Below are positions 2,203-32,580 of a stretch of DNA of 51,853 nt, in pieces. A model generated the notes under the pieces. That model made no database searches, had not been told where the DNA came from, and was given only the letters and a program-made list of their open reading frames with translations. A program made the position numbers and the translations under genes. The stretch comes from a virus, in IMG/VR virus record IMGVR_UViG_3300019360_000015, positions 1 to 51,853 of that record; one strand, 5' to 3'. The number at the start of each line of letters is the position of its first letter. Position 1 is the stretch's first letter.

Positions 2203-2207
2203 TACCC

Positions 2208-2733: not shown

Positions 2734-2784
2734 ATATTCCTCTATTCCTCAAATTTCACGCGACTCCATTGCCGCGGTTGGTTG

Positions 2785-2870: not shown

Positions 2871-3092
2871 TATCCGGGCGCACCGAGCCGCGTCGACGGC
2901 GCAATGCTTCAGCGCGCCGTCGACGGATCTGTGGATCACCCCACAAGCTCCGCGTACTGGCCCCTCGCATGTATGGGGGTCGTCCACGAAATTTTCTCTC
3001 TCCCGCTTTAGTTCGCAGGCCCAGCACTCTGGGAACTGCCCGTCAGCGGCATAGTGCTCGCATTCTCTGTAACTCGTATTGCACTTTCTCAT
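2829..3092 (-). CDS. Cysteine-rich hypothetical protein, 87 aa
   Basis: Starts at ATG 3092 with GGGGAG upstream. The N-terminal half is rich in cysteine and histidine (C4, C11, H13, then PECWAC near residue 21, HTC near 41), suggesting a small zinc-binding fold. The C-terminal third overlaps a strong DNA hairpin at 2891-2925 and part of a GC-rich inverted repeat, and may therefore not be an original part of the protein. The stop is TAG. It lies just downstream of the parS-like palindrome. Unknown function. Confidence 0.55.
   Translation of the reverse strand: MRKCNTSYRECEHYAADGQFPECWACELKRERENFVDDPHTCEGPVRGACGVIHRSVDGALKHCAVDAARCARIGGGAYSDRSPVRV
2891..2925. repeat. 12-bp perfect stem, 11-nt loop
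   Basis: CGTCGACGGCGC at 2891-2902 is exactly complementary to GCGCCGTCGACG at 2914-2925. There is no T-run on either side, so it is not a typical terminator. It sits inside the 3' part of the leftward 87-codon gene. Confidence 0.6.
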
Positions 3093-3106
3093 ATTTTCTC
3101 CCCATC

Positions 3107-3130
3107 AAGGTGTTCCACGTGGAACACCTT
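3107..3130. promoter_or_regulatory. parS: parS-like palindrome
   Basis: A 24-bp perfect palindrome lies 14 nt upstream of the leftward gene at 3092. Its 16-bp core at 3111-3126, TGTTCCACGTGGAACA, matches the bacterial chromosomal parS type bound by ParB (TGTTYCACGTGRAACA). No parA or parB gene is visible in the window, so any ParB would come from the host or lie elsewhere. On the + strand the palindrome is followed by TTCTTTT and could fold as a terminator, but no rightward gene needs one here. Confidence 0.5.
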
Positions 3131-3187
3131 TTCTTTTACTGAGATTCGATGGACTCAAATGCCTCTAAATCTAACAACATTAAAGAT

Positions 3188-3415
3188 CTAAAAATTGACT
3201 GACCGACGAGCTTTCCGGGCGGCCCTGCGCGATGGGAACCCCTCGGTCGGTTTCGGCTCGTACCGCGAGCGGAGGAAGCGAACTTTCGCTCCAGCGGCCT
3301 GGGCCACGAGGATCAATGCGGCCCACTCAGCAGCGAACTTTGCCTGCGCTTCAGCGGCTTTCTTCGCCTGGGCTTCAGCAAAAGTGGTTTGTACGTTCAA
3401 CTTAATGACAGTCAT
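3188..3415 (-). CDS. Basic, alanine-rich hypothetical protein, 75 aa
   Basis: I set the start at ATG 3415 (MTVIKLNVQTTF), which has AAGGAG 7 nt upstream; the longer frame from 3469 has no such site. The middle is a strongly helical repeat (AEAQAKKAAEAQAKFAAEW), followed by a hydrophobic stretch and a basic C-terminus (SRRAARKARRSVNF). It could bind nucleic acid, but I recognise no family. A hairpin (AAGATAGA / TCTATCTT) lies in the leader. Confidence 0.6.
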   Translation of the reverse strand: MTVIKLNVQTTFAEAQAKKAAEAQAKFAAEWAALILVAQAAGAKVRFLRSRYEPKPTEGFPSRRAARKARRSVNF

Positions 3416-3526
3416 AGTAATCTCCTTAAAAACCAAGGTTAATCTTTCCAACAAGATAGAATAGAGCATTTCTAATCTATCTTATTATCCCATCAAAAAA
3501 CAAAAAAGAGTTCCGATCTAATCTCC

Positions 3527-3568
3527 AAAATAAAAAATAGGGACGGGCCAGACGGGCCAACCCGTCCC
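3527..3568 (-). terminator. Rho-independent terminator, leftward
   Basis: On the minus strand GGGACGGG and CCCGTCCC form an 8-bp GC stem (3540-3568), followed by TATTTTTTATTTT (3527-3539). It would end transcripts of the genes at 3642-4810. A second perfect hairpin, CCTCAGCA / TGCTGAGG at 3575-3602, lies just before it. Confidence 0.8.
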
Positions 3569-3641
3569 AGAGCGCCTCAGCATCAATGCAAAAGTGCTGA
3601 GGGGAGATTGAGGCATATCAAATAATAGATTCAGCCGCGAG

Positions 3642-3878
3642 TCAAGCTAATTTTTTGCTTGCCCGACCGCAGGATGAGCAAAAGCTGGCGCCCGCGATCC
3701 TATGTTTCTGCCCACATCTTGGGCAGAACGGGGCGACTAAATTCAGCCCCGCAGTTGGGGCATTCTCTAGCGCAGCCCGCGATAATGGCTGCGTCGGCCC
3801 AGAATTTGATGGGCGAGTCAGGGGTTGAGTTGCCCCGAATCGCCCCACCCCACGGAAATTTTTTAAATTAAATATCAT
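3642..3878 (-). CDS. Zinc-ribbon protein, 78 aa
   Basis: The C-terminal 30 residues contain CPRCGQ, then 13 residues later CSSCGR, a typical four-cysteine zinc ribbon. The N-terminal half is low in complexity (repeated PxxxxPTQPLSR) and probably disordered. I favour ATG 3878 (MIFNLKNF) since AGAGG lies 10 nt upstream; ATG 3887 is too close to that site. It overlaps the end of the gene at 3868-4089. Likely a nucleic-acid or protein-binding adaptor; its target cannot be told. Confidence 0.6.
   Translation of the reverse strand: MIFNLKNFRGVGRFGATQPLTRPSNSGPTQPLSRAALENAPTAGLNLVAPFCPRCGQKHRIAGASFCSSCGRASKKLA
3717..3725 (+). repeat. TCTTGGGCA 9-mer, one of ten copies
   Basis: Exact copies on the + strand start at 3717, 7942, 8901, 16571, 23003, 25940 and 34376, and on the minus strand at 6108-6116, 40529-40537 and 51084-51092. 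They occur in coding and non-coding DNA and in several reading frames. The copy at 8901 and that at 6108 share a longer 14-mer, TTTCTTGGGCAAAA. At this base composition fewer than one copy is expected. Confidence 0.6.
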
Positions 3879-4089
3879 AATATCCATTCCTCTCAGCTAG
3901 CACCCTCACATATGCGAGGAAATGGTCGATCTGATATAATTTTTCAAATAATTCCGCTGCCCATTCATCCTGGGTCAGCCACAAATCATTCATGGTCTGC
4001 TCCAGGGCAACTAGAATTTCGGACAATCCCAGTCGTGAAATCCTTGAGGCCGCGAGAAGCGCATCCTCTTCTCTCTTTTTCATGTTCAT
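3868..4089 (-). CDS. Hypothetical helical protein, 73 aa
   Basis: Short helical protein (MNMKKREEDALLAASRISRLG...) ending RNGYYDI. AAGGTGA stands 9 nt before the ATG at 4089, one base after the stop of the preceding membrane-protein gene. No motif known to me. It overlaps the following zinc-ribbon gene. Confidence 0.6.
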   Translation of the reverse strand: MNMKKREEDALLAASRISRLGLSEILVALEQTMNDLWLTQDEWAAELFEKLYQIDHFLAYVRVLAERNGYYDI

Positions 4090-4090
4090 A

Positions 4091-4501
4091 TCATTTCACC
4101 TTTTTGCCCACGGTGAGGGCATATGCCATTGCAACTGCGTTCGCCGCGCAGAGAAGGATAAGCGGCAGAAACCGAATGTTCCCTTTAGCGAAGGTCATCG
4201 CAACTTCAAGTAGGATGGTAAATCCTACAGCTTTGAAAAATCCCATGGACTTCCAGCCACGTGAGCCGTACCACATGCGAGCATAGTCAAAAATGCTTAA
4301 TGATGATACGGTCAGCCCGCCCGCAACGGCGACCCACATATATGGGTTAGCCTGCGCCTCGCCGTGTGCCAGGCTATAGCTGATGACGGGCAGACTGGCT
4401 CCGACCACAGAGCCGACTCCCGCTGCCAAACGATTGCGATTGAATATCTGAATCTGCCTAAGCAGACCAGAATTCATGGAAGGTGTATTTTTCTTCGCCA
4501 T
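4091..4501 (-). CDS. Small multi-pass membrane protein
   Basis: The 136-residue product (from MAKKNTPSM) has about three to four hydrophobic segments: near residues 24-40 (AAGVGSVVGASLPVISYS), 52-68 (WVAVAGGLTVSSLSIF), 85-100 and 108-128 (FLPLILLCAANAVAMAYALT). I chose ATG 4501 because the GGAG ribosome site lies within the first codons of the longer version. The function is unknown; an early inner-membrane protein of this type could alter host transport or superinfection, which is a guess. Confidence 0.6.
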   Translation of the reverse strand: MAKKNTPSMNSGLLRQIQIFNRNRLAAGVGSVVGASLPVISYSLAHGEAQANPYMWVAVAGGLTVSSLSIFDYARMWYGSRGWKSMGFFKAVGFTILLEVAMTFAKGNIRFLPLILLCAANAVAMAYALTVGKKVK

Positions 4502-4529
4502 GATAATCTCCATTTATTTGTTAATTATT

Positions 4530-4581
4530 AGAGAGGCAAACAGTAGAGTATCCGGTACTGGCTACTGAGGTTTGCCTCTCT
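4530..4581. repeat. Long hairpin between two leftward genes
   Basis: AGAGAGGCAAAC at 4530-4541 pairs perfectly with GTTTGCCTCTCT at 4570-4581, and CAGTAG / CTACTG extend the stem inside. A T-run (AATTTTTT) follows only on the + strand, where no transcript is expected. On the minus strand it lies between the genes starting at 4810 and 4501 and may control processing or translation. Confidence 0.6.
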
Positions 4582-4594
4582 AATTTTTTGCCCC

Positions 4595-4810
4595 CTAGCG
4601 GGAGAATTTAAGAAATGTTGAGAACTGGCTGTCGCTGATCTTCTCGATTTGCCAGCCTATCGATCTTGCCATGTCAATGATGGCGTAGTCCATCTCGTAG
4701 TTATGGCTCGGATGCTCGATCAGGAAGTCAAGCCAATCCGCGTCTTGGCTATTGAGGATAAATACCTTGAATCCTTCAATCTTTATTGTCATTTGAAATT
4801 TCTTTGCCAT
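4595..4810 (-). CDS. Hypothetical protein, 71 aa
   Basis: Starts at ATG 4810 with AAGGAG 6 nt upstream. A short alpha/beta-looking protein (MTIKIEGFKVFIL, then DWLDFLIEHPSH, ending FSTFLKFSR). No family recognised. It is the first gene downstream of the palindrome array at 5056-5128, so it probably heads its own transcript. Between 4811 and 5055 I see no gene, only the 7-bp hairpin ATTATGG / CCATAAT near 4974-4992. Confidence 0.6.
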   Translation of the reverse strand: MAKKFQMTIKIEGFKVFILNSQDADWLDFLIEHPSHNYEMDYAIIDMARSIGWQIEKISDSQFSTFLKFSR

Positions 4811-5055
4811 TTAATCTCCTTATATTGATAGATAATAGGGGGCATCATGAATTATTAGCCTGAGTCCCTACTATCCATCATCTGCTCCGCCGTAGACACC
4901 ATGATAGGAAGCAACCCCTGTGCCACATTCCATTATTAAGTGTAAGTATATGGAAATAAAGGACTTAGCCCATTATGGCTTTACCATAATTAGATTAAAA
5001 TATGGGTATATTTTACCTAGTAGCGGTAAATTGTTGAAAATAAAGAACTTCCATC

Positions 5056-6103: not shown

Positions 6104-7523
6104 ATTTTGCCCAAGAAAGAAATACACCATATGGTATAGTTTTAACAAATTAAATGTTGCGGAAAATCGGCAAAAAATGGCCATTTTTGGGCATGATGTG
6201 AAAAATTAAGTTATTGATTCTAAAGGGCTTAGGGGATCGGCAAATCAAAAATTAAAAACGCATATCTTACCCTAGGGAAAATGAGAAAATCTTCTCATTC
6301 ATGGAGAGCAAATCGTCTAAATCCTTTATAATCAATAGGTTACAGATTTTAACTCTTAAAGTTGGTAAATCCCATAAGTTCTTTATAATCAATAACTTAT
6401 AGTCCATTGACCAGGAAGATGAAATTTGTGGTATAAAATTTGTAAGGGTGGATAATGTGGGATGTGGTATAGGAATTGCTAATAGCAAATCGTGTGCCAA
6501 AATTACCGATTATATAGGTATCTACATAGGGTAGGTATGGCATAGAAATTGTCCAAAGCAAATTACATACCATAGTGAATTAAAATCGTTCAATTTAGCT
6601 GGGTAAATTATGTGCTTTATAATCTTATACTTAGTACGGTTTTGCCCCTATGCTACTATACCTCTCGGATGTCATACGGTGTAAAAATTACATAGTTCCA
6701 ATATGCAAGCTTGATGCCAAGTCTAAATTATATATCTATAATGATTATATTCCTGTAATAATTTAGTCAGACCAAATGCTTAGTAAAATATAATGGTCAG
6801 ACCAACTCTACGAATCATTTCGTAGTCCTAGACGCAAGCAGTATGCCACAAGTTAAATACTTGATTCTAAAGGGGTTTCGGCCCTAATAATAGGCCAAAA
6901 ATGACCCTATATCATAGCATACCCCAAAGCCTAAAAATCGATCCTAGGCCAATTGTGACGAAAGCCTGTAAGTCATTGATTCTAAAGAACTTGTTTGTGT
7001 AATCTGTAATATTAGCGAGTGAGATTAGAAATGAGAGAAATCTATGGCATCATTCTTGCATAAATGCTTGGTACCAAAATTGCAAGGAATAAATACTGTG
7101 CCACAAAATTGTTATGCAATTACTGTGCCAAAAAATATTTATTTCGTTAAATTAGAGAAATAAATTTGCGTGCCAACCATAAGTCTTTTAATATTATATA
7201 TTTATAATATTAAAGATTTTTAATGTGGGGGGAGTAGGGGACGGTGCGATGCCTCTAATTTAGTATCTAGGAAAACTTTCATGGAAAAACTTTTTCCATA
7301 ATTTAGTAGCTAGGAAAAAATTATAAAAAAAGTTTTTTCTTACTTCAATAGCTAGGAAAAATTTCATGAAAAAAGGCTAGTAGGTAAGGAAAATTTATTA
7401 AAAATGATTTGATTTATGATTAATTATGGAAAGAGTTATATTACAAGGGATAAATTTTCCAAAAAAAATAAAATACATGAAAAGTTTTTATTATCTTGGG
7501 TGAGGATTGAAAAAAGTGTTTTT
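6104..7523. other. AT-rich non-coding region with short repeats
   Basis: About 1.4 kb without a credible gene. It holds TTGATTCTAAAG three times (near 6216, 6863 and 6976), TTTATAATCAATA twice (near 6325 and 6381), GTCAGACCA twice (near 6768 and 6795), TACTGTGCCA twice (near 7090 and 7130), and a fifth TGTA-N5-TACA palindrome at 6679-6693. Between about 7258 and 7400 a degenerate 40-50 bp unit containing TAGCTAGGAAAAA repeats three to four times. It could be a replication origin or an early control region. The 77-codon leftward frame here is explained by the repeats. Confidence 0.5.
6679..6693. repeat. Fifth copy of the TGTA-N5-TACA palindrome
   Basis: GTGTAAAAATTACAT matches the consensus of the array at 5056-5128, 1.55 kb away. 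Confidence 0.65.
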
Positions 7524-10896: not shown

Positions 10897-11841
10897 TTAT
10901 ACATAACTCAATTCAGCAACTTTGATCGCCCCGCTGGAATCCTTGATTTTAAATTTAAGTTTGGAGGCGCTTTCATCTAGCCACAGATTAATCTCGCTAT
11001 TTGCTAGCACTCCATCAGCCAACGCCACATCGGGTGTACGCAAAATCAATCCATCCGTAGCCCAACTGAGCGCACGACTGTGTGAGGAATCAGCATACGA
11101 GATGCTGCCGAGTGAATATCTATCACCGGCGGGATCTTCATACACTGCGCCAAAACCGACCTGACTGTTGCGGTAAAAAAGCAGCCCGGCTCCGTCAGAC
11201 TCAAACCCTACCTGACTGATGAAACTACCTGTCGAATCGTATGCGTCAAAGACCAGTGTCGGGCGATCAGGCAAATTCCAGGTTGCGTAATTTGCCCAGC
11301 TCCCTTGGGACCCCACATAACCCAGGTGATAGTTGACAATGCTGGGTGCATTCAAAGTCAGCAAACACGAGTATCCACCGATCAGAGGATGGCCGGACGC
11401 CCCCGACTCGATTAACTCGATTAGCGTTGGTCCATTGCTATTTCCCACCAGCGTGGGATTCCCAGTTGGGCTGTAATTGAAAAGACTAGCGCCGTCCACC
11501 ATTGATCCATTTGCGGGATAATAGGTCAGCTCCCCCGTCAATCCTGGATTAATTGTTCCACCTCCACCGCCTCCAGTTGCCCAAACAAGTCTATTTAATG
11601 AAAGATCATAAATAAGTCCTTGATTATTAAGCGGAACACCATCTATCTGAATTCCTAAAATCGCATTACAATTTTGAATTTGAGAAACACTTAAGGTCTC
11701 AACTCCAAGCTCTATATCACTGTCAGTTGCTGGAATCTCAGACAAGGAGTCAACAATACTCCAAACATCGCCATTTCTTAGTATAACTATCTGCCCAGCA
11801 TTTATTAAATCAATAATTTGATCACGCGTTATAATACTCAT
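10897..11841 (-). CDS. Fibre-like virion protein with shared N-terminal anchor
   Basis: The 314-residue protein has three parts. Residues 1-55 are the anchor module (IINAGQ-like start: LINAGQIVILRNGDVWSI, EIPATDSD, GVETLSVSQ) that is also found at the N-termini of the 1438-residue protein to its right and the protein at 25754. A Gly-rich hinge (near 90) and a beta-rich middle follow. The C-terminal 60 residues include LADGVLANSEINLWLDE and LKFKIKDSSGAIKVAELS, a segment also seen near residue 480 of the large protein. It is probably a second fibre or a cap that docks at the same site. Confidence 0.65.
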   Translation of the reverse strand: MSIITRDQIIDLINAGQIVILRNGDVWSIVDSLSEIPATDSDIELGVETLSVSQIQNCNAILGIQIDGVPLNNQGLIYDLSLNRLVWATGGGGGGTINPGLTGELTYYPANGSMVDGASLFNYSPTGNPTLVGNSNGPTLIELIESGASGHPLIGGYSCLLTLNAPSIVNYHLGYVGSQGSWANYATWNLPDRPTLVFDAYDSTGSFISQVGFESDGAGLLFYRNSQVGFGAVYEDPAGDRYSLGSISYADSSHSRALSWATDGLILRTPDVALADGVLANSEINLWLDESASKLKFKIKDSSGAIKVAELSYV

Positions 11842-11859
11842 AGACCACCTGAAGCTGAA

Positions 11860-11902
11860 ATATACTAGGAAAAGTGACTATAAACCACTTTTCCTAGTAT
11901 AT
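11860..11902. repeat. 17-bp perfect hairpin between fibre genes
   Basis: Arms at 11860-11876 and 11886-11902 are exactly complementary with a 9-nt loop. No T-run follows on either strand, so it is not a standard terminator. It lies 19 nt before the start of the gene at 11841 and might be an RNA-processing or translation-control site. Confidence 0.7.
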
Positions 11903-11936
11903 CAATTATCAATTAATATATAAGAAATTTTCCTTC

Positions 11937-12431
11937 CTAGAGTGTGTATCTGGAGGAAAAGCCCCAAATTAGTATTTTGGCCTTACATACTTGTCCACCC
12001 AAGCCGGTACAAGCTGTGTTTATTTTTAGCTTCACGGGAATATCATCATCCCCATATGGAAGCTGAATGAACGGCAGTTCGTTTTCCAATTGAATAAGCT
12101 TAAGGAGATTCAGAGTTCCGCCAACAGATTTTAACGCCACAAAGTTATTGTAATTTGTAGCGTTGGTTCCAACTGAAACAGTTGGATTGAGCAGAACAGA
12201 ACTCCAATCCGTAGTAACAGCCGCGACTCCCATCACGATGTAGCGAAGACCAAATCCGCTTGACGGATAAGCGACGAATGATCCGATGTCATGTGTTCCG
12301 GTCGCGCTAAAATCAATTTCACCGGTAACAAAGGTAAAAGGTGTGCTTTGCGCGTGCGCCGATGCAGATATAGCCAACGCCAGTATCACCGAAAAAAGCA
12401 TTCTCGCGAAAATGTTTATTGTTTTTTTCAT
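11937..12431 (-). CDS. Secreted protein with Sec signal peptide
   Basis: The 164-residue product begins with a textbook Gram-negative signal peptide: basic MKKTINIFAR, a hydrophobic core (MLFSVILALAI) and an SAHA-QS cleavage site after residue 27. The mature part is beta-rich (FVTGEIDFSATGTHDIGSF, TVSVGTNATNYNNF) with two cysteines near the C-terminus (C139, C148) that could form a disulphide in the periplasm. AGAGGA lies upstream. It stands between two fibre genes. Possible roles are lysogenic or infected-cell surface modification or a fibre-associated factor; unknown. Confidence 0.6.
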   Translation of the reverse strand: MKKTINIFARMLFSVILALAISASAHAQSTPFTFVTGEIDFSATGTHDIGSFVAYPSSGFGLRYIVMGVAAVTTDWSSVLLNPTVSVGTNATNYNNFVALKSVGGTLNLLKLIQLENELPFIQLPYGDDDIPVKLKINTACTGLGGQVCKAKILIWGFSSRYTL

Positions 12432-12468
12432 ATAAAATTTCCTCTCTTTTGTATTTATGTTTTAACTA

Positions 12469-15400
12469 TTAATTCGAGACTTCCCAAACCTCCATCGTAC
12501 TATTAGTCAGGAAGGTTGTTGAGTCTGAGTCAGAAGTCGCCTGTGCCCCCTGCACGCGTAAATTTCCAGAGCCATTACAAACAATGGTAGCTTCCCCCCA
12601 CATAGTGCCTCCAGCGCTATCGGTAGTACTTAGTACGAAAGCTATTGGAGTTGTTCCATTTATGGCCGTGAGTCGAGTAGAAGAGCCTGCGATAGCATCA
12701 CCATTAGATTGAGTATCAAACGCCCAACCAGCCCCTAGCGCAGCCGAGGCCGTGGCAGTTCCTGTTAGGGTAATTTTTGCTCCGCCTCCAGTTGATGATG
12801 TCATGTTGTAGAACACGCATACTCTGACCTTATATGTTCTACCTGTAACCAGGTTAACTGTTAGTCCGGTAATATCGGAGAAGGTTGTACTGCTGGTCTT
12901 GGTCAGATCAGACGTAGATCGTACCAGCCCGTAGTACTTAACCTGCCCATTGCCTCTAATCCTGAAAGTTTCGGTGAGCGCCGAGGCGTTATTGACGTTG
13001 GCGAACGCTATATCCGCCGTCCGCGTTGGATGGTTGGAGTCTGTCCACACAGACCGGATATAGGTAGCGTCTTGAGAATCAGCCGCGCCTGTTCCTGAAG
13101 TCTCCAAGCCAAACACTAAGTTACCACCCAAACCTGCCGCCGCCGTTCCATTGCTATTGACGTTGATTCGGAAAACAGTATGAGCTTGATTGGTATTGGA
13201 TGAATTGACATTGAATTGCCCTAAATCAGCCGAGGAGTTGGAGGCGCTGTCTACGCGAAGGCCGACGCGGGAAGTCGAGCCGCTAGCCGCATGTAGTTGG
13301 GCGCTTACCGTTCCAGATGCGGTATTGATGCCTACAGTTTGCCCGTTAGTCGAGCTTAACACTTGAATGGCCGGCGTTGAAAAGGCGTTATTCGTTCTAA
13401 AAGTGATCGTGCCAGTCGTCGCTGGGCCATTAAACACGACATCGGGAACTGAGGAATCGTATTGCAGGAAAAAGTTGCTGCTGCTGGGCGACGCTGTATT
13501 AACCCCGCCCCACATGGCCGGGTACAAAAACCCTCCACCGTTGTCGAAATACCCAAGCAACCACCTCCCATCGGTGCCACTTGCACCACCAGATGCATTC
13601 CCATTAATAAGTATACCGGCGCCAGCCGCACCGTTCGCCAGAGACCGATCAAACCGAGCAATTGGGTTCGTTGAAGTGGTCGCGTTGCTGAAGAGCAACG
13701 TCCCGGTACCCTTGGGAGAGAACGTCCCACCCGCATTGGTATCCCCTCCTGTAATACTCAACGTCGGCGAGTTACCTGTCGCCGCGTTCGCCACTGTGAA
13801 TTCATTCACCGCGCTGGCGGTCGCCGTAATTGCGAATATTTCATTACCATTGATGTCATCAATGCTAGTAATAAACTTTGGCCTAGTAGCTGCTAGAATC
13901 CCACTGTTAAATGTTTGTGTCGCAGTAAATGTCTCGGCTAAGTCCGTACCGGCAATCGTATAACTGGCGTTTTGAGGAGTCAGAACTCTAGTAGTTCCGG
14001 TTGTAAACCCATCTACCTCAAATCTTAATAGTTTAGTGGCATCTACGCTTCCTTTCACCAGAGCCGTTGTTTGATCATCAAAAGGCGGATTAAAGTCTAT
14101 TGATACTCCATTTTCTCTACACCGAAACTTATTTCCTGTAGAGTTATACCAAATATCACCGTTTGATAATGCTGAAGGATCTCCGGAGACGGAGCCAACT
14201 CTTAATGCTGCGCTAGTTGTAGAAGCCGTTGTGTGAACTCGTCCTCCGAATTGCGAAATGGCAGATCCTTCAGTCTTGATGGCGTAGATATTTGTCGCGC
14301 CAGCCGCCGTTGTCGCTATATCTTGAATCCACAGACCATAAGCGTTAGTCAGCGCACCATTTGTTCTATAAACATCTCCAAACAATGCTGCGGAATTGGT
14401 GACAGTACCAGACGATTTATCGTTTTCATTAATTGCAGCTACACCAAGCATATTAACTACATTGCCGGAATTTCCAGCAGATGCGTATGATGCGACGCCA
14501 TAAACAGAAGTAATATTAGCAGTTCCAGACTCCCAGTTGGCGCTTCCTTGAATCTGCGCCCCTGTAATCCTTTCAGTTGTACCACCAATTTGCTCACCCC
14601 AGACAGATGTAAACGTGCCCCAAAGACTATCATTAGCGCTATTACTGACATTAGTAAAAGCCGCCGCTGCGCTGACTAAAGCTGAATTCGTAGAATTCTT
14701 AATGGCGACCTGTAATCCACTATACTTAAAAGAATCAATCTGTGTAGCTGTGAAATTACTCTCAGGAACTCCTATAAATACAAAAGGATCTTCCAGAGTT
14801 TGTCCAACAGGATCATTGAATGTGGCTTGTCCAGCTTGTACCCATAACGCATACTTGTTCGTCAATATTGCATTTGATCCGCTTAGTGGAGCATTGGTTA
14901 TGGCTACTGTCGCTGCTGTAGTGATTGTATCTGAGCTAGTAAACGCATATGTAGGCGCGCTAAATACATATTCTCTTTGTTGAGGAAAGGTTGAGCCTCC
15001 TGCTGTAAACTGTCGAACTACTGACGCTCCTGATCCATTACCGCCAATATAAATTCCTGGAGCTTCGATGTCAGCGGCAAGCGCTGTATCAGCAGGTGTT
15101 GTTAGCGAAAACCATGGTGCGCTTCCTGAAGTTCTGGGAGATGGAGCAAACGTAACCACCCCACCCGATGTTGAATTTGAACCAGGAATTTCTCCTAATA
15201 CATTACCTAAAGCTTCATAAAGAATTCTACCAGTCGAGCCTGAAGTTATCGTAGTTGTTCCAATATTTAATACATTACCACCGCTTAATGAGAGGGGAAT
15301 TTCACCAAGTTTCAGAGCGCTAGTACTATATTTTACCTTGACTTTGATTTTGTCAGCGCTCTCGTCCAGATAGAACGAGAAAGCAGAATTAGAGAGATCG

Positions 15401-16785
15401 CCATCGGCAGGTGCGGAATCAGGCGCAGTGGCGAAAAGCCTATCACCAAGCTCGACCTTGCCTAATCCAGTTCTGATAGCCCAGTTATTAGTTCCGCCAG
15501 CAATGTCCTCCACTTTTAAGCCATATGCGTTTACTAATGTGCCTGCAACATAGGTCAAACCGGCTCGAATAGCCATAAAATCATTGACGTTTGAGAATAC
15601 CTGACCGGCGCAGTTAAGACTGATCATGGTATCTACCATGCCAGAGAATGCTACTGATTGAAAATCTCCACCAGTAACTTGTGATGCGGAATCGCTTCCA
15701 GCCCATAACGTAATCCCTTGTAACCCAGACAAATTTTGATTAGCTCCGCCTGACCCATTTTGAACTAGAAAAGTTAATCCAGAGACGCTCGTTCCACTCT
15801 GTGTGTTCTCTGGTTTCACGTTTAGCAGTACATTAATACCATAAAACTGAGACAAATTCGTTATAGGATCAGCATCAACTGCTACTATAATGCCATTAGC
15901 GAAGTTGGTTGAAAAATCTCCATTTATACTCTCTTGTATGTCAAGGAGCGCAGCCCCAGAAGGGTATGGATAGATAGAACCACCATTGATTGCGCTCTGC
16001 GCTCCAATCGCGGCGTGTTTTGTGGCTCGAAAATTACCATCTAAGGCTAGTAAATCATTTCCATTGTCCCAAGAGAATTCAAGGAGATCATCAATAGTAG
16101 TTCCGTCCGTCGGATAGTATGCGATCTTACCGGCTAGCCCGTCATTAATTGTCCCTGATCCTCCTCCAGTTTGCCACGAAGGGATACCAGAAGATACTGT
16201 GAGAACTTGCGCATTGGTCCCAATTCCTAATCGGGCAAAATTCCCACTAGAATTCCTGTAATAAATATCTCCGGTAGCATCTGATCCTAGATTAATTATA
16301 GGACTTGTTAATGTTTTGTTTGTGAGAGTTTGTGAACCAGTCAGAGTAGCAACGTCTGATCCAATATCTAAAGTGGGGGTTCCTAATACCCCGTCTCCAT
16401 TTGTAACTGTAATCCTATTTGATGTTCCGACTATTGTCCTAGATATAGTAGTATTCAGAGCAGTTCTAACCAATAACCCATTTGAACCAGGATCAGTTAA
16501 ACCACCTCCACCACTACCAGTTTGCCATTCCATCCTATTAGTAATTGCATTATATGCTAGGCTTTTTCCGTCTTGGGCAGGACCGTCTATTTGCTTTCCC
16601 ATTAATGCATTGGCGTTTAAAAGTTGGCTTATAGACAAAGTTTCTACGCCTTCTTCAATTTCAGCATCAGATGTGGGAATCTCGCCCAACGAATCAATAA
16701 TCGTCCAAATGTCGCCGTTTCTTAGGAGAACAGTTTGGCCATTTGATATTAATAATTCAATTTGAGATTTTGTCAGTACAGCCAT
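12469..16785 (-). CDS. Large tail-fibre-like protein, 1438 aa
   Basis: Probable receptor-binding fibre. Residues 1-55 are the anchor module shared with two other proteins (LISNGQTVLLRNGDIWTI, GEIPTSDAE, GVETLSISQ). There follow a Gly-rich hinge, a TLTGSQTLTNKTLTSP segment of the kind common in fibre shafts, and a long array of beta-rich repeats with the recurring pattern N-A-Y-G-L/K-x-x-D-I (near residues 425, 650 and 860). The C-terminus (TFLTNSTMEVWEVSN) is likely the exposed tip. The gene is on the strand opposite to the main structural operon and has its own consensus promoter. Long open frames on the other strand inside it are shadows. Confidence 0.75.
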   Translation of the reverse strand: MAVLTKSQIELLISNGQTVLLRNGDIWTIIDSLGEIPTSDAEIEEGVETLSISQLLNANALMGKQIDGPAQDGKSLAYNAITNRMEWQTGSGGGGLTDPGSNGLLVRTALNTTISRTIVGTSNRITVTNGDGVLGTPTLDIGSDVATLTGSQTLTNKTLTSPIINLGSDATGDIYYRNSSGNFARLGIGTNAQVLTVSSGIPSWQTGGGSGTINDGLAGKIAYYPTDGTTIDDLLEFSWDNGNDLLALDGNFRATKHAAIGAQSAINGGSIYPYPSGAALLDIQESINGDFSTNFANGIIVAVDADPITNLSQFYGINVLLNVKPENTQSGTSVSGLTFLVQNGSGGANQNLSGLQGITLWAGSDSASQVTGGDFQSVAFSGMVDTMISLNCAGQVFSNVNDFMAIRAGLTYVAGTLVNAYGLKVEDIAGGTNNWAIRTGLGKVELGDRLFATAPDSAPADGDLSNSAFSFYLDESADKIKVKVKYSTSALKLGEIPLSLSGGNVLNIGTTTITSGSTGRILYEALGNVLGEIPGSNSTSGGVVTFAPSPRTSGSAPWFSLTTPADTALAADIEAPGIYIGGNGSGASVVRQFTAGGSTFPQQREYVFSAPTYAFTSSDTITTAATVAITNAPLSGSNAILTNKYALWVQAGQATFNDPVGQTLEDPFVFIGVPESNFTATQIDSFKYSGLQVAIKNSTNSALVSAAAAFTNVSNSANDSLWGTFTSVWGEQIGGTTERITGAQIQGSANWESGTANITSVYGVASYASAGNSGNVVNMLGVAAINENDKSSGTVTNSAALFGDVYRTNGALTNAYGLWIQDIATTAAGATNIYAIKTEGSAISQFGGRVHTTASTTSAALRVGSVSGDPSALSNGDIWYNSTGNKFRCRENGVSIDFNPPFDDQTTALVKGSVDATKLLRFEVDGFTTGTTRVLTPQNASYTIAGTDLAETFTATQTFNSGILAATRPKFITSIDDINGNEIFAITATASAVNEFTVANAATGNSPTLSITGGDTNAGGTFSPKGTGTLLFSNATTSTNPIARFDRSLANGAAGAGILINGNASGGASGTDGRWLLGYFDNGGGFLYPAMWGGVNTASPSSSNFFLQYDSSVPDVVFNGPATTGTITFRTNNAFSTPAIQVLSSTNGQTVGINTASGTVSAQLHAASGSTSRVGLRVDSASNSSADLGQFNVNSSNTNQAHTVFRINVNSNGTAAAGLGGNLVFGLETSGTGAADSQDATYIRSVWTDSNHPTRTADIAFANVNNASALTETFRIRGNGQVKYYGLVRSTSDLTKTSSTTFSDITGLTVNLVTGRTYKVRVCVFYNMTSSTGGGAKITLTGTATASAALGAGWAFDTQSNGDAIAGSSTRLTAINGTTPIAFVLSTTDSAGGTMWGEATIVCNGSGNLRVQGAQATSDSDSTTFLTNSTMEVWEVSN

Positions 16786-16826
16786 GGTTTGTCCCCGTAT
16801 TCTGGATTGATTTTTATGAAAAACTA

Positions 16827-16855
16827 ATTATATCAAAAATCCTCCATTAAGTCAA
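16827..16855 (-). promoter_or_regulatory. Leftward promoter of the fibre gene
   Basis: Minus strand -35 TTGACT (16850-16855), 17-bp spacer, -10 TATAAT (16827-16832). The leader is about 40 nt; a clear Shine-Dalgarno is lacking (CGGGGACAAACC before ATG 16785). Confidence 0.8.
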
Positions 16856-16882
16856 TTGTTTATCAGTACTTGAAAATAGGAC

Positions 16883-16911
16883 TTGACATTTAAATCTTTA
16901 TCAGTTAGAAT
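16883..16911 (+). promoter_or_regulatory. Promoter of structured RNA A
   Basis: -35 TTGACA (16883-16888), 17-bp spacer, -10 TAGAAT (16906-16911). Transcription should begin near 16918. The next rightward gene starts 1.57 kb away, so the direct product is a non-coding RNA. Confidence 0.8.
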
Positions 16912-16917
16912 AAAGAC

Positions 16918-17405
16918 TCGAACATAAAGAATTGCTCTTTTCCAATTTGGAAAATATCTTCAACGTTGTAAGGGCTGAGGTTGCCGTACAAGAAGTCGAG
17001 TTCGTCGGAACCAAAAAAATCCTGTACTCTCTATGTCTGCAACAAACTTCCAAATAAGCTAGAACCAATTAAGAATTGAGTTTCAGAAAAGTTTTAGACG
17101 AAAGTTAGGGAAAAATGCATAGACTGAAGAGAATTTGACCCTCCTCCTTGCAAGCAACGTTGTAAAAATAAATATATTCTAATTGCAAGATTACACCATG
17201 AATTAGTAAGTTAGGGTATCGGGCCGTTACCGAGAGAGCAAGTAGGTAATAAACCGCGCAAGGGAACCGGCAAGTAAACGACCGAAGGGGCCTATACTTA
17301 AAATCTTTTGAGTATGTCTTTTTTGGAAAAAATTTTTACTTTCGACCAGAGGGCTGGTCAAAGTGTCACTTCTCTCAGCTAACCTACCTTAAACAAATTA
17401 TTTAT
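16918..17405 (+). ncRNA. Large structured RNA candidate A
   Basis: About 490 nt without a credible ORF, behind a consensus promoter. Visible stems: TTTTCCA / TGGAAAA near 16940; GGTTGCCG pairing with CGGAACC (16979-17013); a closing stem GTAT-GGCC / GGCC-ATAC around 17217-17296 with GTTACC / GGTAAT inside; and ACTTT-GACCA / TGGTC-AAAGT (17338-17363). The 3' end reads GTGTCACTT...TTAAACAAATTATTTATTAT. The 5' GCTCTTTT-hairpin-TGAGGTTG block, the ACGACCGAAGGGG block and the 3' end recur in RNA B. Size and neighbours resemble the ornate phage RNAs GOLLD and ROOL, but I cannot match it to either. Confidence 0.65.
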
Positions 17406-17740
17406 TATCATAATTTACAATAAAAAAGTTATCTAATTAACAATTCTCCTTTTTAGATGATTTTAGGGAATGATTAGGAGGTAGATGATCTAGATATTAT
17501 GGGCAATAATATAACTAATTTTAATTCTTGATTGTAACATGGGATTTAAATAGTGTAAATAATAGGTTTATAGATCATAATAAGGACTAGATAATAAACA
17601 AAATCTAATTAGAATTAAGATTCAAAATTAGAATTATTGATTGCTAAATAATGAATAGGAGCGTCTAGTTGACATTTAAGGACAGAAATGCTTAAAAACA
17701 AGGGATGGAAAAAGAGATGATTTTGTGAGATGATACGCTC
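17406..17740. other. AT-rich spacer between the two RNAs
   Basis: No gene, strong hairpin or terminator is seen. A TTGACA at 17669-17674 lacks a good -10 box at the right distance. Confidence 0.5.
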
Positions 17741-17769
17741 TTGACAGATTAATTCTTCTGTGCTAAGAT
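17741..17769 (+). promoter_or_regulatory. Promoter of structured RNA B
   Basis: -35 TTGACA (17741-17746), 17-bp spacer, -10 TAAGAT (17764-17769); expected start near 17776. Confidence 0.8.
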
Positions 17770-17775
17770 ATTCTT

Positions 17776-18250
17776 TGATAAATAATGAACTTATTTATTA
17801 TGCTCTTTTAGATCATTAAGCTGGATAGAAAATGATCACTCCGTTTGGATGTGAGGTTGTCCGATTATTAAAACGAACCTGGGAAGTCATACACCCCAGA
17901 TAGTAATTTTAATAGCTTAAGCAAAATTTCCAAGTTAATCTTTGTCATTTCCTACTTAGGATAAAAAAGATTCGGGCCGATAGGCGGCATCAAACTCCTT
18001 CATACTATTATATGAAAGCCGAAAAAGTGTTGTAACCGGGAAGCTTAAGTACCTCTTTAGTGGGACGGAGTATAAATATTTGACCGTGCGCCGAACAGCT
18101 TTAGGCGTATACACAGGCCACTAAACAATAGGACTAGTTAAAAACGACCGACGGGGGGTCAGCTTTCGTTTTGTTTTTACTAATAGACGGTGTATGTCTA
18201 TTAGTGTCCACTCCCTCCGAAAAGTCACCTTTACCTTAATTATTTATTAT
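17776..18250 (+). ncRNA. Large structured RNA candidate B, paralogue of A
   Basis: About 475 nt without a gene. Stems: ATAAATAA / TTATTTAT (17779-17799); GATCATT / AATGATC (17811-17837); AGGTT / AACCT (17854-17880); CTTCATA / TATGAAAG (17998-18018); GCGCC / GGCGT (18089-18109); TGACC / GGTCA closing a domain (18082-18161); and a perfect 10-bp stem ACTAATAGAC / GTCTATTAGT (18180-18206). It shares with RNA A the order GCTCTTTT, hairpin, TGAGGTTG-stem, AAACGACCGA-GGGG, terminal hairpin, GTGTC and a 3' end ACCTTAA...ATTATTTATTAT. No ORF or known RNA family was recognised. Confidence 0.65.
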
Positions 18251-18429
18251 ATAAATTGCCTGATAAGGTAGTAGGATCAAGAATTTAGATAAGATAAAAA
18301 ATCTATTTTAAAAAATCTACTTTTAGGATCTACTTAAAAAAGTTGGGCAAAAATAAGCATTAAAACTAATCTGATCTAAGATCCAACTTAATAATTCCTC
18401 TCCTACCATTAAATAATACCAAATAAATA

Positions 18430-18481: not shown

Positions 18482-18979
18482 ATGTCTGCAAATAAAGGAT
18501 TTAATAGAAAACATTGGCGTGGCGGCCAGGATAGGCATTTATATCCTATTCCGCCAAAAGATGGAAGGATTTTTTATATTGCTATCCACTTGCCTAGAAA
18601 TCCAGGTAATGGAGTATTTTATTGGGCTGAGGTAAGCCAGGTTGGAAACCTTTTGGCCGAATTTGGATGTAGAGTCTCCTCAATCACTAATAACAGGATG
18701 GAAGTTCTGGGTTTAATAGATATAATTGAAAAACATAAAGAGTGTAATAATTTTGTTGTTTATTCCAGTAGTCAATATTTGGTTAATGGCGTAAATGCTT
18801 GGATGTTTAAATGGAAAAAGAAAAATTTTTCCAAAATTAAAAATCCCGATTTATGGTCAAAACTTTATTCCGCTCTTCTTGGCAAGAAAATCACAATGCG
18901 CTGGGTTAAATCTCTTAGTGGTAATAAATGGAATGATTATACTTATATAAAAGCTATGGAAATGTATTACGATTCTTGA
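18482..18979 (+). CDS. RNase H-fold protein lacking catalytic residues
   Basis: The 165 residues align along their length with RNase HI: RNPGNG (39-44), SITNNRMEVLGLI (68-79), VVYSSSQYLVNGVNAWMFKWKK (92-113), KNPDLWSKL and MRWVKSLSGNKWNDYTY (139-155). Of the DEDD active site only the Glu (E74 in TNNRME) remains. The first Asp is Ala34, the Asp of Y-T-D-S-Q-Y is Ser96, the His loop is Leu145 and the last Asp is Tyr155. It should therefore not cleave RNA-DNA hybrids but may still bind them. It lies just downstream of the two structured RNAs and has AAAGGA upstream. A binding or capping role for hybrids or the RNAs is inference. Confidence 0.75.
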   Translation: MSANKGFNRKHWRGGQDRHLYPIPPKDGRIFYIAIHLPRNPGNGVFYWAEVSQVGNLLAEFGCRVSSITNNRMEVLGLIDIIEKHKECNNFVVYSSSQYLVNGVNAWMFKWKKKNFSKIKNPDLWSKLYSALLGKKITMRWVKSLSGNKWNDYTYIKAMEMYYDS

Positions 18980-21611: not shown

Positions 21612-22146
21612 TGGTAAATATATTGAAAATTTCTTTAATTTTAATGTTAAAGAGTTTTTTGACGTTGAATCCTTAGCTCATTCTTGCTCTCTCCAGGCTA
21701 GATTTACAGGACATTCTAAATTTCCAATTTGGGTTTCTCAGCATATGCGACTAAGCTCTGAATTAGCGCTTTTGGCAGGAGAATCTACAGACATAGTTCT
21801 TGGATGTCATATTCATGATTTATCAGAGGGATTTTCTGGAGATTTAAATAGATGTATTAAGCATCTTCCTGGTCTTGAAATTTATAAAATAAGAGAAAAT
21901 TTCATAGAACATGAGATTTTTCGCATTCATGGCTTGAAAATTACTGATAGCTTCTTATCAATAATAAAATACTATGACAATGTAACGCTTTCAACGGAAG
22001 CACATTGGGCTATGGATACAAATCTCCCGTGTTGGCAAGAGCATTTATCAAAATTTCCATCAAGAAAGTATATTCTTCTACAAGAAGAGGATTGGAGAGA
22101 AGCTAAGAAGCAATGGTTGGAAAGATATTATTTTTTGACTCAATAA
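21598..22146 (+). CDS. HD-domain phosphohydrolase, YfbR-like
   Basis: I use ATG 21598 (MQLYNGKYIENFF), behind AGAGAAAGG; the upstream start at 21565 lies deep in the previous gene. The 182-residue protein has VSQHM (H49), HIHDLSEGF with the HD pair at 73-74, and GDLNRCIKHLP (81-91), the pattern of HD 5'-nucleotidases such as YfbR, which remove phosphate from deoxynucleoside 5'-monophosphates. With the deaminase-like and Nmad1-like proteins it points to reworking of the nucleotide pool. It converges on and overlaps the deformylase gene by 44 bp. Confidence 0.75.
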   Translation: MQLYNGKYIENFFNFNVKEFFDVESLAHSCSLQARFTGHSKFPIWVSQHMRLSSELALLAGESTDIVLGCHIHDLSEGFSGDLNRCIKHLPGLEIYKIRENFIEHEIFRIHGLKITDSFLSIIKYYDNVTLSTEAHWAMDTNLPCWQEHLSKFPSRKYILLQEEDWREAKKQWLERYYFLTQ

Positions 22147-22669
22147 GTTTTAAAGTTCTTTCATCTAAATCCCATTTGCCCTTATTTTTCAATTTTTTGA
22201 TCTTTTGATTGATTATATTAATATTAAGTTGTGAAATCTCATCCAAAAAGAACTTTTGATGTGCGTGCTCATATTCATGACAGATCAATCTTGCCTGGAA
22301 TCCTTCAAATCCATCCTCTTTTACTTCAAAGTCCTCATTTAAATACCTGACTTTTATCCATCTTGGCCTTAATTTTGGTATATAAATTGAAGGCAATGAA
22401 AGGCATCCTTCCATTTCTTTTACTTGTTCGGGACTTTGCTCAAGAATTTCGCAATTAATGAATGTCTTAATCTGACCATTAATGAATCCGACAAATAATT
22501 CTAGTTTTTCACCTATTTGAATAGCGGAAAGTCCTGCTCCATGATAGAAATAGGTAGAATTCTTTAGGATTTGGATAATTTCGGCCAAATTTTCTGTTTC
22601 TTGTGTGACTTTTTCACATTTTTCCAGTAATAAAGGATTGCCATATTTGATTATTGGTTTAATATTCAT
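22103..22669 (-). CDS. def: Peptide deformylase
   Basis: Removes the N-formyl group from newly made proteins. All three family motifs are present: GAGLSAIQ (44-51), EGCLS (87-91, metal-ligand C89) and HEYEH (131-135, catalytic E132). The 188-residue length is usual, with a lysine-rich C-terminal extension. Phage deformylases are best known from marine phages. It is encoded leftward among rightward genes, so it is likely expressed at another time. TAGGA lies 8 nt before ATG 22669. Confidence 0.9.
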   Translation of the reverse strand: MNIKPIIKYGNPLLLEKCEKVTQETENLAEIIQILKNSTYFYHGAGLSAIQIGEKLELFVGFINGQIKTFINCEILEQSPEQVKEMEGCLSLPSIYIPKLRPRWIKVRYLNEDFEVKEDGFEGFQARLICHEYEHAHQKFFLDEISQLNINIINQKIKKLKNKGKWDLDERTLKLIESKNNIFPTIAS

Positions 22670-23004: not shown

Positions 23005-25533
23005 TTGGGCAACGAAAGATATATAAGAAATCTCATTTATCCGCCTCCTGACAATAGATCAGTTATGGAGAAATTGTCCGATCTTTCATCCGAGGAAAGA
23101 GCGGCAATTATAGATAAGATAGTTGCGGAGAAGTTTAATGGTAACTACGAGGCTATAAAATATGCTTGGGATTTAATTGCGCGTCCTTCACAACTTATTA
23201 GTATTATTCCTGATTCAAATTGGAGAATTGCTTGTTGGTGCGCGGGACGCGGGATTGGAAAAGGCGCTTCATTAAAAACTAGAATTCCTACTACTTTTGG
23301 CTGGACAACTATGGGTCAAATAAAGGTAGGAGATCAGGTTTTTGATGAAAATGGAAATGTTTGTAATGTTACAGCCGTTACAGATGAGTACATGCCAAAA
23401 AAAGCATATAGATTTGAGTTTTCAGATGGAACTTTTATTGATGTTTGTGATCAACATCAATGGATAAGCTGGGATCATTTAGCTAGAAAGTCTTATCTTA
23501 AAAAAGATAGAATAAACCACTTAGAAATCAATAATTTTAAATTCCCAGATGATTGGGTAAACTGGTCTAGGGTATATAGAAAGAGTGTAAATAAGCCGAA
23601 AATAAGAATTTCTGAAGAGATTGTAAATAGTTTTTATTATGGAAAACGTAATGATTTGAATCACTGTATTCCTTTATGCAAACCATTAAAGCTAGATGAA
23701 AAAGATTTACCTATTCCTTCTTATTTACTAGGATTGTGGCTTGGGGATGGAAATTCTAATGCCCCATGTATAACATGTCATATTGATGATTTTCAATTTT
23801 ATAGTTCTTATCTATCTAATCTAGGATTAAAACTTTCTAAATTTAGACCAGATTTTAGGAGTCCTAATACTGGAAAGTTTACTATATATGAAGTATTTAA
23901 GTTGAAAATACTAGATTTATATAAAAATAAACATGTACCAGATTTGTATCTTAGGGGATCAGAAAAACAAAGACTGGAGCTAGTACAAGGATTATTGGAT
24001 AGTGATGGGAATATATGTAAAGAAGGCAGAATAGAATTTTATAATACAAATAAGTTAATTTTTGATGCTGCGTATGAACTTTTAGTTTCTTTAGGACAAA
24101 AACCGATAATATCTACAAGGATTGGTAAATTAAATGGGAAGAGTTATAAATTATGCTATCGGTTAGGTTTTCGACCGAATAGATTTGATTTATTTAAGTT
24201 GCCTAGAAAATTAAAAATACTTAAAGATAGCTTGAAATACTCTCAACAACTTAGAAATCATCACAGAATGTTGATCTCTTATAAAGAAATTTCTCCTCTA
24301 TTAATGAAATGTATACAAGTTGATTCAAAAAATTCTATGTATTTGATTGGAGATGGGATGATTCCTACTCATAATACCTTTTTAGCTAGTCAAGCTATTA
24401 GACAGGCTGTGGAAAGTGGCGGGCATAGAGAGTTGCTTTTAGTTGCTCCGACCAGTAATGATGTCATATCTACTAATATAAATGGTCCTAGTGGTATTCT
24501 TGCTGTTTGTCCTCCGTGGAATAAGCCTGAATGGAGTCCTACCTATAAACAATTAGTTTGGCCAAATGGGGCTAGGATGATTTATAGATCGGCGGATGAG
24601 CCAGAACGTATTCGAGGTGCGAACATAAGTTTTGCCGTTTTGGATGAGCTTGCTGCGGCAAACTATGGTAAAGAGGCATTTGATATGACGATGTTTGCTC
24701 TAAGATTAGGAAATCCAAAATGTATTATAACTACTACTCCAAAACCTCTAGCTTATTTACTTGAAATTTTTTCCCGCACTGACTGTTATGTGATCACTGG
24801 CTCAAGTTTAGAAAATGCCGCAAATATAGATTTGTCTGTATTCTTGGAGCAATATCAAGGAACAAGATTAGGCAGACAAGAGATTTATGGAGAGCTGCTT
24901 TTTGATAATCCTGACAGTTTGTGGAATTATCAGACTATTGAAAAATCCAGGCTTAAGAGGTCAGACAACGTTCCTGAGCTTATTCATATAGTGGTTGCAG
25001 TTGATCCTGCGGTTTCGGTTTCTAAAACTTCCGCCGAGACTGGTATATCTGTTGTCGGATATGGAATAGACGGCCATGTTTATATTCTTTACGCTGATGG
25101 ATTTAAGATGCAGCCCTTAGATTGGGCTAAAAAAGTTATTGAACTTTATGATTATTATAGGGCGGATAGGATCGTAGTTGAAGTAAATCAAGGTGGGGAT
25201 TTGGTAAAATCAAATTTACAACAAGTAAGACCTCTTCTGCCTGTTTATTCTGTTCACGCAACCAGAAAAAAAGCGGTTAGGGCAGAGCCGGTTGCAAGTC
25301 TATTTGAACTGGGGAAAGTTCATTTAGTAGGGTATTTCCCAAAACTTGAAGAACAACTTTTGAACTTCCCTCCGAGCGACTCAAAAACGGTTATTGATTG
25401 CATGGAAAGCTGTGTTTGGGGGGTAACGGCTTTAATGGAATTGACTTCCGGAACTCAAAATTATGCCCCATCTGTTGGTGGTCAAAGAAATAAAGTTTTA
25501 GATTATTTGAAAGATGTTTCTCACATCTATTAA
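23005..25533 (+). CDS. terL: Terminase large subunit with intein
   Basis: ATP-driven DNA-packaging motor and nuclease. The 842-residue precursor splices to 472 residues. N-extein ends CAGRGIGKG; C-extein begins TFLAS, so the joined Walker A reads GRGIGKGT. Walker B is FAVLDELAAA, the coupling motif IITTTPKP, and the RNase H-like nuclease has VVAVDPAVS, DRIVVEVNQGGD and a final acidic Asp in DCMESCVWG. The only start in frame after the preceding TAA is TTG 23005, with no Shine-Dalgarno; ATG 23065 would give a protein 20 residues shorter. TTG lies within a copy of the repeated word TCTTGGGCA, so the start is uncertain. Confidence 0.93.
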   Translation: MGNERYIRNLIYPPPDNRSVMEKLSDLSSEERAAIIDKIVAEKFNGNYEAIKYAWDLIARPSQLISIIPDSNWRIACWCAGRGIGKGASLKTRIPTTFGWTTMGQIKVGDQVFDENGNVCNVTAVTDEYMPKKAYRFEFSDGTFIDVCDQHQWISWDHLARKSYLKKDRINHLEINNFKFPDDWVNWSRVYRKSVNKPKIRISEEIVNSFYYGKRNDLNHCIPLCKPLKLDEKDLPIPSYLLGLWLGDGNSNAPCITCHIDDFQFYSSYLSNLGLKLSKFRPDFRSPNTGKFTIYEVFKLKILDLYKNKHVPDLYLRGSEKQRLELVQGLLDSDGNICKEGRIEFYNTNKLIFDAAYELLVSLGQKPIISTRIGKLNGKSYKLCYRLGFRPNRFDLFKLPRKLKILKDSLKYSQQLRNHHRMLISYKEISPLLMKCIQVDSKNSMYLIGDGMIPTHNTFLASQAIRQAVESGGHRELLLVAPTSNDVISTNINGPSGILAVCPPWNKPEWSPTYKQLVWPNGARMIYRSADEPERIRGANISFAVLDELAAANYGKEAFDMTMFALRLGNPKCIITTTPKPLAYLLEIFSRTDCYVITGSSLENAANIDLSVFLEQYQGTRLGRQEIYGELLFDNPDSLWNYQTIEKSRLKRSDNVPELIHIVVAVDPAVSVSKTSAETGISVVGYGIDGHVYILYADGFKMQPLDWAKKVIELYDYYRADRIVVEVNQGGDLVKSNLQQVRPLLPVYSVHATRKKAVRAEPVASLFELGKVHLVGYFPKLEEQLLNFPPSDSKTVIDCMESCVWGVTALMELTSGTQNYAPSVGGQRNKVLDYLKDVSHIY
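23266..24375 (+). mobile_element. Intein of class 3 type with LAGLIDADG endonuclease
   Basis: A 370-residue in-frame insert between Gly and Thr of the terminase Walker A loop. It begins with Ala (ASLKTRIPTTFGWTTMG) instead of Cys or Ser and ends PTHN before Thr. It carries the Trp-Cys-Thr triplet of class 3 inteins: block B HQW (W66), block F KCIQV (C349) and block G T368 with N370. In that class the block F cysteine makes the first attack. The centre has two LAGLIDADG helices, LLGLWLGDG (154-162) and LVQGLLDSDG (239-248), each with an acidic residue, so the homing endonuclease looks active. Confidence 0.88.
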
Positions 25534-31872: not shown

Positions 31873-32580
31873 ATGAAAGAAAATTTAGATAGTTCTTTGA
31901 AAAAATGTAAGAAGTGTGGTGAGTCCAAACCTGTTGATTGTTTTCGACTCTCTCTTAGTAAGAATAAACAGTACTCTTATCCAAGAAATACTTGTAAGGA
32001 TTGTGAAGCTTTAAGGCTTAAACAATACGAACTAGAAAATAAGGAAAAGAGAGCTATGCAGCATAAGCAGTATAGAGAAAGAAATATAGATAAAGTTCTT
32101 GCTAGAGAAAAGGAGTATAGAGAAGCTAACAAAGAAAAGGTTACTAATGCATCTAAAAAGTGGAGGCAAGAAAATCCAGAAAAGGTTAAAGAAAGATGGA
32201 AAGCTGAATATAAGAAGAATAGAGAGTACTATCTTTTAAAAGAAAAGCAAAGATGGATAAACAAGAAGGAGGAACTTCAAGCCAAAAATAAAGCTTGGCG
32301 TGAAGCCAATCCAGAAAAAGTTAAAGAGTACCGTAGAAAGTACAGATTAAATATAAAGGATTCTTTAACTCTTGATTATTGTGAGTTTCTTTTGACAAAG
32401 CCTTGTACTTATTGTGGCGGAAAATCTGAGGTTTTAGATCACATTGTTCCTCTTTCAAAAGGTGGTACACACACTTTCGACAATCTAACTCCTTCTTGTG
32501 AGAAATGCAACAATGAAAAGAAGGCGAAAGATTTAGAAACATTTTTAAAAGTAAAAGAAGTTGAAATAAAGGCCCTGTAA
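31873..32580 (+). CDS. Free-standing HNH homing endonuclease
   Basis: 235 residues. An N-terminal zinc finger (CKKCGE...CKDC, 12-43) is followed by a long basic helical region with repeats of the kind E-A-N-x-E-K-V (EKYREANKEKV, ENPEKVKERW, EANPEKVKEYR), probably DNA-contacting, and a C-terminal HNH nuclease: CTYCGG, LDHIVPLSKGGTHTFDNLTPSC, EKCNNEKKAKD. The gene lies between the capsid and connector genes with its own promoter and GGAAG ribosome site. Such genes spread by cutting phages that lack them. A hairpin (CAAGC / GCTTG, 32587-32613) follows. Confidence 0.85.
   Translation: MKENLDSSLKKCKKCGESKPVDCFRLSLSKNKQYSYPRNTCKDCEALRLKQYELENKEKRAMQHKQYRERNIDKVLAREKEYREANKEKVTNASKKWRQENPEKVKERWKAEYKKNREYYLLKEKQRWINKKEELQAKNKAWREANPEKVKEYRRKYRLNIKDSLTLDYCEFLLTKPCTYCGGKSEVLDHIVPLSKGGTHTFDNLTPSCEKCNNEKKAKDLETFLKVKEVEIKAL

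Follow-up and report, generated by a model that had tools for sequence, protein, structure and literature searches.

Organization of the locus

The window analysed here is a linear virus record of 51,853 bases from an uncultured phage. Protein scans of this contig found the tailed-phage genes for the terminase large subunit, a Mu-type portal, and head and tail proteins. Gene direction is mainly minus to the left of 16.8 kb and mainly plus to the right of 18.5 kb. The gap between these two parts is flanked on the left by a minus-strand gene that starts at 16785 and encodes 1438 aa without a Pfam match, and on the right by a gene for an RNase HI-like protein. The ORF scan found no reading frame of at least 60 aa within 16786–18322; from there to the start of the RNase H-like gene the sole such frame is antisense and overlaps the start of that gene. 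An earlier note on this DNA had described two gene-free stretches, each behind a promoter-like site, and both the ORF scan and the promoter scan bear out this description. The two stretches are termed RNA1 and RNA2 (Table 1). The tRNA scan found no tRNA in the 51.8 kb window.

Exact matches to TTGACA-N16-18-TAnnnT are rare in this contig: there are four on the plus strand, two of which are promoters 1 and 2. In both cases the first hexamer is located 35 nt upstream of the matching RNA 5' end. RNA1 is followed by a gene-free spacer of 330 nt and then by promoter 2. No classical terminator was found at the inferred 3' end of either RNA. Each RNA contains an internal U tract, which in RNA2 is terminator-like according to the terminator scan.

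The RNase H-like gene has its own promoter-like site upstream (TTGACT-N17-AATAAT at 18430). In the alignment of its product to the E. coli RNase HI, the glutamate of TNNRME is kept, and serine is found in place of both D70 and H124; when the ends of the alignment were extended by hand, alanine was found for D10 and tyrosine for D134. Judged by these residues, the protein is probably a pseudoenzyme.

Several other features of the contig are outside the RNA locus. The GC content is 0.43–0.53 at positions 1–5000 and 11000–16000, and 0.30–0.43 in most of the remaining parts; the markedly higher values suggest segments of different origin. The gene of the terminase large subunit (23005–25533, plus strand) may be split by an intein, since a LAGLIDADG-like match at residues 323–374 precedes the Terminase_6N match at residues 459–591. 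Three HNH or endonuclease VII-like genes (31873–32580, 33521–34498 and 36295–37161, plus strand) are scattered among the structural genes and perhaps encode homing endonucleases. The phage also encodes a peptide deformylase (22103–22669, minus strand).

Table 1. Coordinates of promoters, RNAs, structural elements and the adjacent gene. For helices formed by distant strands both strands are given.
Feature	Position	Strand	Description
Promoter 1	16883..16911	+	TTGACA - 17 nt - TAGAAT, 11/12
RNA1	16918..17412	+	about 495 nt; ends predicted by means of the promoter spacing and the end-to-end helix
P1, RNA1	16924..16933 with 17396..17405	+	9/10 pairs; joins the RNA ends
GCTCTTTT box and P2 hairpin, RNA1	16934..16954	+	TTTTCC/GGAAAA
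P4, RNA1	16961..16968 with 17155..17162	+	CAACGTTG/CAACGTTG, long-range; then ATAAATAT at 17168
TGAGGTTG box, RNA1	16976..16983	+	GAGG can pair with CCTC 17140-17143 (P5); or local GGTT/AACC
AAACGACCGAAGGGG conserved motif, RNA1	17276..17290	+	followed by AT-rich hairpin and U tract
Hairpin F, RNA1	17338..17364	+	ACTTT-C-GACCAG AGGG CTGGTC-AAAGT, then GTC
Promoter 2	17741..17769	+	TTGACA - 17 nt - TAAGAT, 10/12
RNA2	17776..18256	+	diverged copy of RNA1, about 481 nt; ends predicted
P1, RNA2	17778..17786 with 18239..18247	+	9/9 pairs
GCTCTTTT box and P2 hairpin, RNA2	17802..17837	+	GATCATT/AATGATC
P4, RNA2	17838..17844 with 18065..18071	+	ACTCCGT/ACGGAGT, long-range; then ATAAATAT at 18072
TGAGGTTG box, RNA2	17852..17859	+	GAGGT can pair with ACCTC 18051-18055 (P5); or GGTT/AACC
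AAACGACCGACGGGG conserved motif, RNA2	18142..18156	+	followed by U tract
Hairpin F, RNA2	18179..18205	+	ACTAATAGAC GGTGTAT GTCTATTAGT; same length as in RNA1
RNase HI-like protein, next gene	18482..18979	+	E 1.6e-14

Paralogy of RNA1 and RNA2

The Smith-Waterman comparison of 16918–17412 with 17776–18256 gave a score of 587; dinucleotide shuffles scored 452 ± 26, and 0 of 500 reached 587 (z 5.1). As shuffling can flatter real sequence, each copy was also compared with real windows of the contig. Among about 1,650 such windows from both strands, the best scores were 552 and 553, both below 587; against GC-matched real windows the z-scores were 4.6 and 5.4. The similarity of the two stretches is above chance on either null. 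The similarity is carried by short collinear words, namely GCTCTTTT, TGAGGTTG, ATAAATAT, AAACGACCGANGGGG, TTTTTACT, AGTGTC, ACCTTAA and (A)ATTATTTATTAT, and these shared words follow the same order in both copies. At the level of standard searches the similarity is too weak: blastn did not link RNA1 and RNA2, and nhmmer with RNA2 placed the 3' domain of RNA1 only at E 2.5, which does not link the copies. The contig was also scanned with a small 3'-domain model, and no third copy was found.

Shared secondary structure

The proposed helices recur in both copies. The end-to-end pairing P1 is formed in RNA1 and RNA2 by different bases, and the long-range helix P4 is likewise kept with different bases. 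P2 of RNA2 is in the same place as P2 of RNA1, with other bases and another length. In both copies, the fold defined by P1, P4 and hairpin F also lets the TGAGG box form P5 with CCTC, which lies just 5' of the 3' strand of P4. The local alternative for this box had been read as a compensatory AGGTT/AACCT stem; this reading fails, because the GGTT/AACC bases are identical in both copies, and the TGAGGTTG stem is an example of conservation, not of covariation.

Hairpin F is the best single piece of structural evidence. It occupies exactly 27 nt in both copies, beginning with the ACT of TTTTTACT and closing with the AGT of AGTGTC, both of which are invariant motifs. If one bulged C is admitted in RNA1, a hand count gives ten pairs common to the two copies; six of them are changed on both sides, which confirms the compensatory relation suggested earlier between GACCA/TGGTC and ACTAATAGAC/GTCTATTAGT. 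A random 21-mer pairs as well as an arm of hairpin F with a probability of about 0.0045. Since no homologue was found, covariation is measured here between two sequences only and does not amount to a true covariation test. In RNA2, the hairpin F loop (18189–18196, GGTGTATG) is complementary to the loop of an upstream hairpin (17888–17895, CATACACC), and its GGTGTA is also complementary to the TACACC loop of RNA1 near 17192. These complementarities are putative kissing contacts.

Tests on whole RNAs gave a graded picture. Single-sequence folding energies are ordinary (z -0.9 and -1.5), so neither fold is unusually stable. Structural alignments were made with a Sankoff-type aligner written in C. 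When unanchored, the alignment of whole RNAs was no better than that of shuffles (z -0.2); by domain, the 5' and 3' parts scored slightly above shuffles (z 1.6 and 2.1, respectively) and the middle part scored worse, and no common structure of the middle domains was detectable. In the anchored test the shared words were fixed and everything between them was shuffled to obtain the null distribution. The sense-strand score was 14,249, compared with 8,831 ± 1,620 for the null (z 3.3, reached by 0 of 100), whereas the antisense strand, which has equal sequence similarity, gave z 1.6 with five of the 100 nulls reaching its score. Part of the sense-strand signal is residual sequence similarity; the difference between the strands points to RNA.

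RNAalifold gave no signal on the sequence-only alignment, in which the helices are misaligned. Imposing P1, P4 and F together costs 1.6 and 1.0 kcal/mol in the two copies relative to the free minimum. Shuffled controls carrying the same strands were equally cheap in 6/60 and 18/60 cases, that is, the RNAs do weakly better, and the low cost of the helices is consistent with the shared fold, not decisive for it. The duplex energy of RNA1 with RNA2 was no better than that of shuffles.

Search for homologues

When the window was scanned against Rfam, no model attained its gathering score, and a permissive scan limited to the RNA region found nothing relevant. In particular, neither scan matched GOLLD, ROOL, OLE, HEARO or group I and II introns, most of which had been named in the earlier note as families to be scanned for; the permissive scan admitted E values up to 5. 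With no repeats, no Rfam match and no reverse transcriptase match among the proteins scanned, the locus is not read as a CRISPR, a retron or an intron. By these scans RNA1 and RNA2 are members of none of the known RNA families tested.

Searches with blastn against phage and plasmid records yielded nothing meaningful. DNA patterns were run against 2.9 million viral contigs: AAACGACCGANGGGG with GTGTC, the same together with the loop before it, the 5' boxes, and the 3' hairpin. Each match examined fell within a gene, on a GC-rich contig or on an apparent RNA phage, and none had the other motifs in place; the 3' hairpin pattern had zero matches. Among 84,980 prokaryote species, one pattern had four matches, all inside long open frames. 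The relatives reached by way of the terminase and of a conserved hypothetical protein are remote, and the RNA motifs are absent from them; the 3'-domain model found no homologue in six remote relatives, and queries with a tail protein and the RNase H-like protein found no relatives. Exact patterns miss diverged relatives, and the collections may lack near relatives of the window, so that the RNAs are orphans within the viral, genome, phage and plasmid collections searched.

Interpretation

The best-supported reading of the sequence is a tandem pair of paralogous, promoter-driven structured RNAs, which makes them candidates for a new class of RNA, with evidence from a single contig. More specifically, we consider it reasonably probable that these are two separately transcribed, trans-acting non-coding RNAs of about 490 nt that descend from one duplicated ancestral RNA gene. 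Duplication of this gene would have given two independent RNAs. The promoter sites are present in the DNA, and the host sigma-70 RNA polymerase would transcribe each RNA from its own promoter. Each RNA is predicted to fold such that P1 joins its ends, P2 forms a 5' hairpin and the long-range P4 encloses a large arm, and its 3' domain would hold the AAACGACCGANGGGG motif and the terminal hairpin F. The comparison of the two copies supports this shared fold of P1, P2, P4 and the 3' domain. The two copies agree in their ends and 3' domain and differ in their central arms, from which we infer a common scaffold with a copy-specific arm. The scaffold may serve self-assembly or bind a partner common to both RNAs. 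As stable RNAs they would act in trans while the phage infects its host, as has been proposed for ROOL and GOLLD. We speculate that the two RNAs could enter a mixed RNA-only or RNA-protein particle with a shared scaffold and different arms, possibly bound by the apparently inactive RNase H-like protein, but consider this elaboration quite doubtful.

Alternatively, RNA1 and RNA2 could be cis-acting leaders, which would form the 5' portions of longer transcripts, influence the very polymerase that makes them and control readthrough to the RNase H-like gene and its operon by attenuation or processive antitermination. Each element begins right at its promoter, and a paralogous pair at two promoters recalls putL/putR; in each copy the GGGG motif precedes a U tract, and the 3' ends have no strong terminator. 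We nevertheless regard leaders as unlikely, given that about 490 nt far exceeds the size of the put elements, that paired 5' and 3' ends fit a self-contained RNA, that RNA1 is followed by the gene-free spacer and a second promoter, and that the RNase H-like gene is preceded by a separate promoter-like site.

Chance or non-RNA similarity is a still less probable explanation, in which AT-rich spacers, DNA-level sites or gene remnants happen to share a few words. The ordinary folding energies, the unanchored alignment of whole RNAs and the failure of nhmmer and blastn to link the copies would all be expected from it. It is opposed by the collinear similarity exceeding that of the real windows, by hairpin F, which is compensatory, holds an equivalent position in both copies and has a low per-arm probability, by the promoters being in register, and by a structure signal specific to the sense strand.

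Very improbable are replication primers, that is, R-loop transcripts near an origin trimmed like ColE1 RNA II or the T4 oriF transcripts: both gene orientation and cumulative GC skew turn at the locus, the 3' ends are AT-rich, G runs and U tracts are present and an RNase H-like gene is next, but the skew simply tracks gene direction, the apparent loss of the D10, D70, H124 and D134 equivalents argues against trimming by the RNase H-like protein, and the iteron-like repeats at 6.2–7.0 kb are a better origin candidate. With these residues lost, this protein would be at most a candidate RNA-binding protein and is a possible partner of the RNAs. The iteron-like repeat, built around TTATTGATTMTAAAG..CTTA, occurs in several copies in both orientations at 6191–6992, with a related copy at 5027–5050; the array lies in a gene-poor AT-rich stretch and is a candidate origin or operator array. 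In the same stretch, a 41-nt repeat (TAATTTAGTAKCTAGGAAAA...) occurs three times in tandem at 7256–7381.

A pair of separately transcribed structured RNAs remains our preferred reading, and the pair appears real enough to merit an expression test. The diverged paralogues provide a natural comparison, in which the parts that are kept would mark the functional core.

Comparison with known RNA systems

The put RNAs of phage HK022 (putL and putR) are paralogous RNAs located just downstream of early promoters that antiterminate the transcribing polymerase. RNA1 and RNA2 resemble them as two paralogous structured RNAs, each right behind a phage promoter, and differ in being far larger, end-paired and separated by the 330 nt spacer. 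ColE1 RNA II is a primer RNA of about 550 nt, at whose 3' end replication starts after RNase H trimming. The common features are a promoter-driven structured RNA of about 500 nt and, here, an adjoining RNase H-like gene; in contrast to ColE1, the RNase H-like protein looks inactive and there is no evidence of an origin at the locus. OLE and HEARO (omega) RNAs are also structured and several hundred nucleotides long, but neither has an Rfam match to RNA1 or RNA2, and no OLE partner or IscB/TnpB-like gene was found among the contig proteins scanned.

To our knowledge, phages have so far yielded very few large structured RNAs, of which ROOL and GOLLD are the best studied. Many members of GOLLD exceed 800 nt. 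ROOL, found in phages and prophages, is about 580 nt long and forms an RNA-only nanocage, and we know of no protein partner for it. ROOL and GOLLD have been described as large phage RNAs that form RNA-only cages of unknown function and are often found near tRNA islands (PMC12286853). The likeness to these two families drawn in the earlier note stands as to size and phage setting, but not as to an Rfam model match or a tRNA neighbourhood. Like GOLLD, RNA1 and RNA2 are phage-encoded and better conserved in the 3' region; unlike GOLLD, they have no Rfam match and no tRNA in or near them, and are much shorter (495 and 481 nt, as inferred). With ROOL they share the character of a large structured non-coding phage RNA without a known protein partner. 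They differ from it in having no Rfam match and no nearby tRNA, and in forming two diverged copies side by side. If expressed, they would represent a new family beside ROOL and GOLLD, showing that such RNAs can duplicate and specialise.
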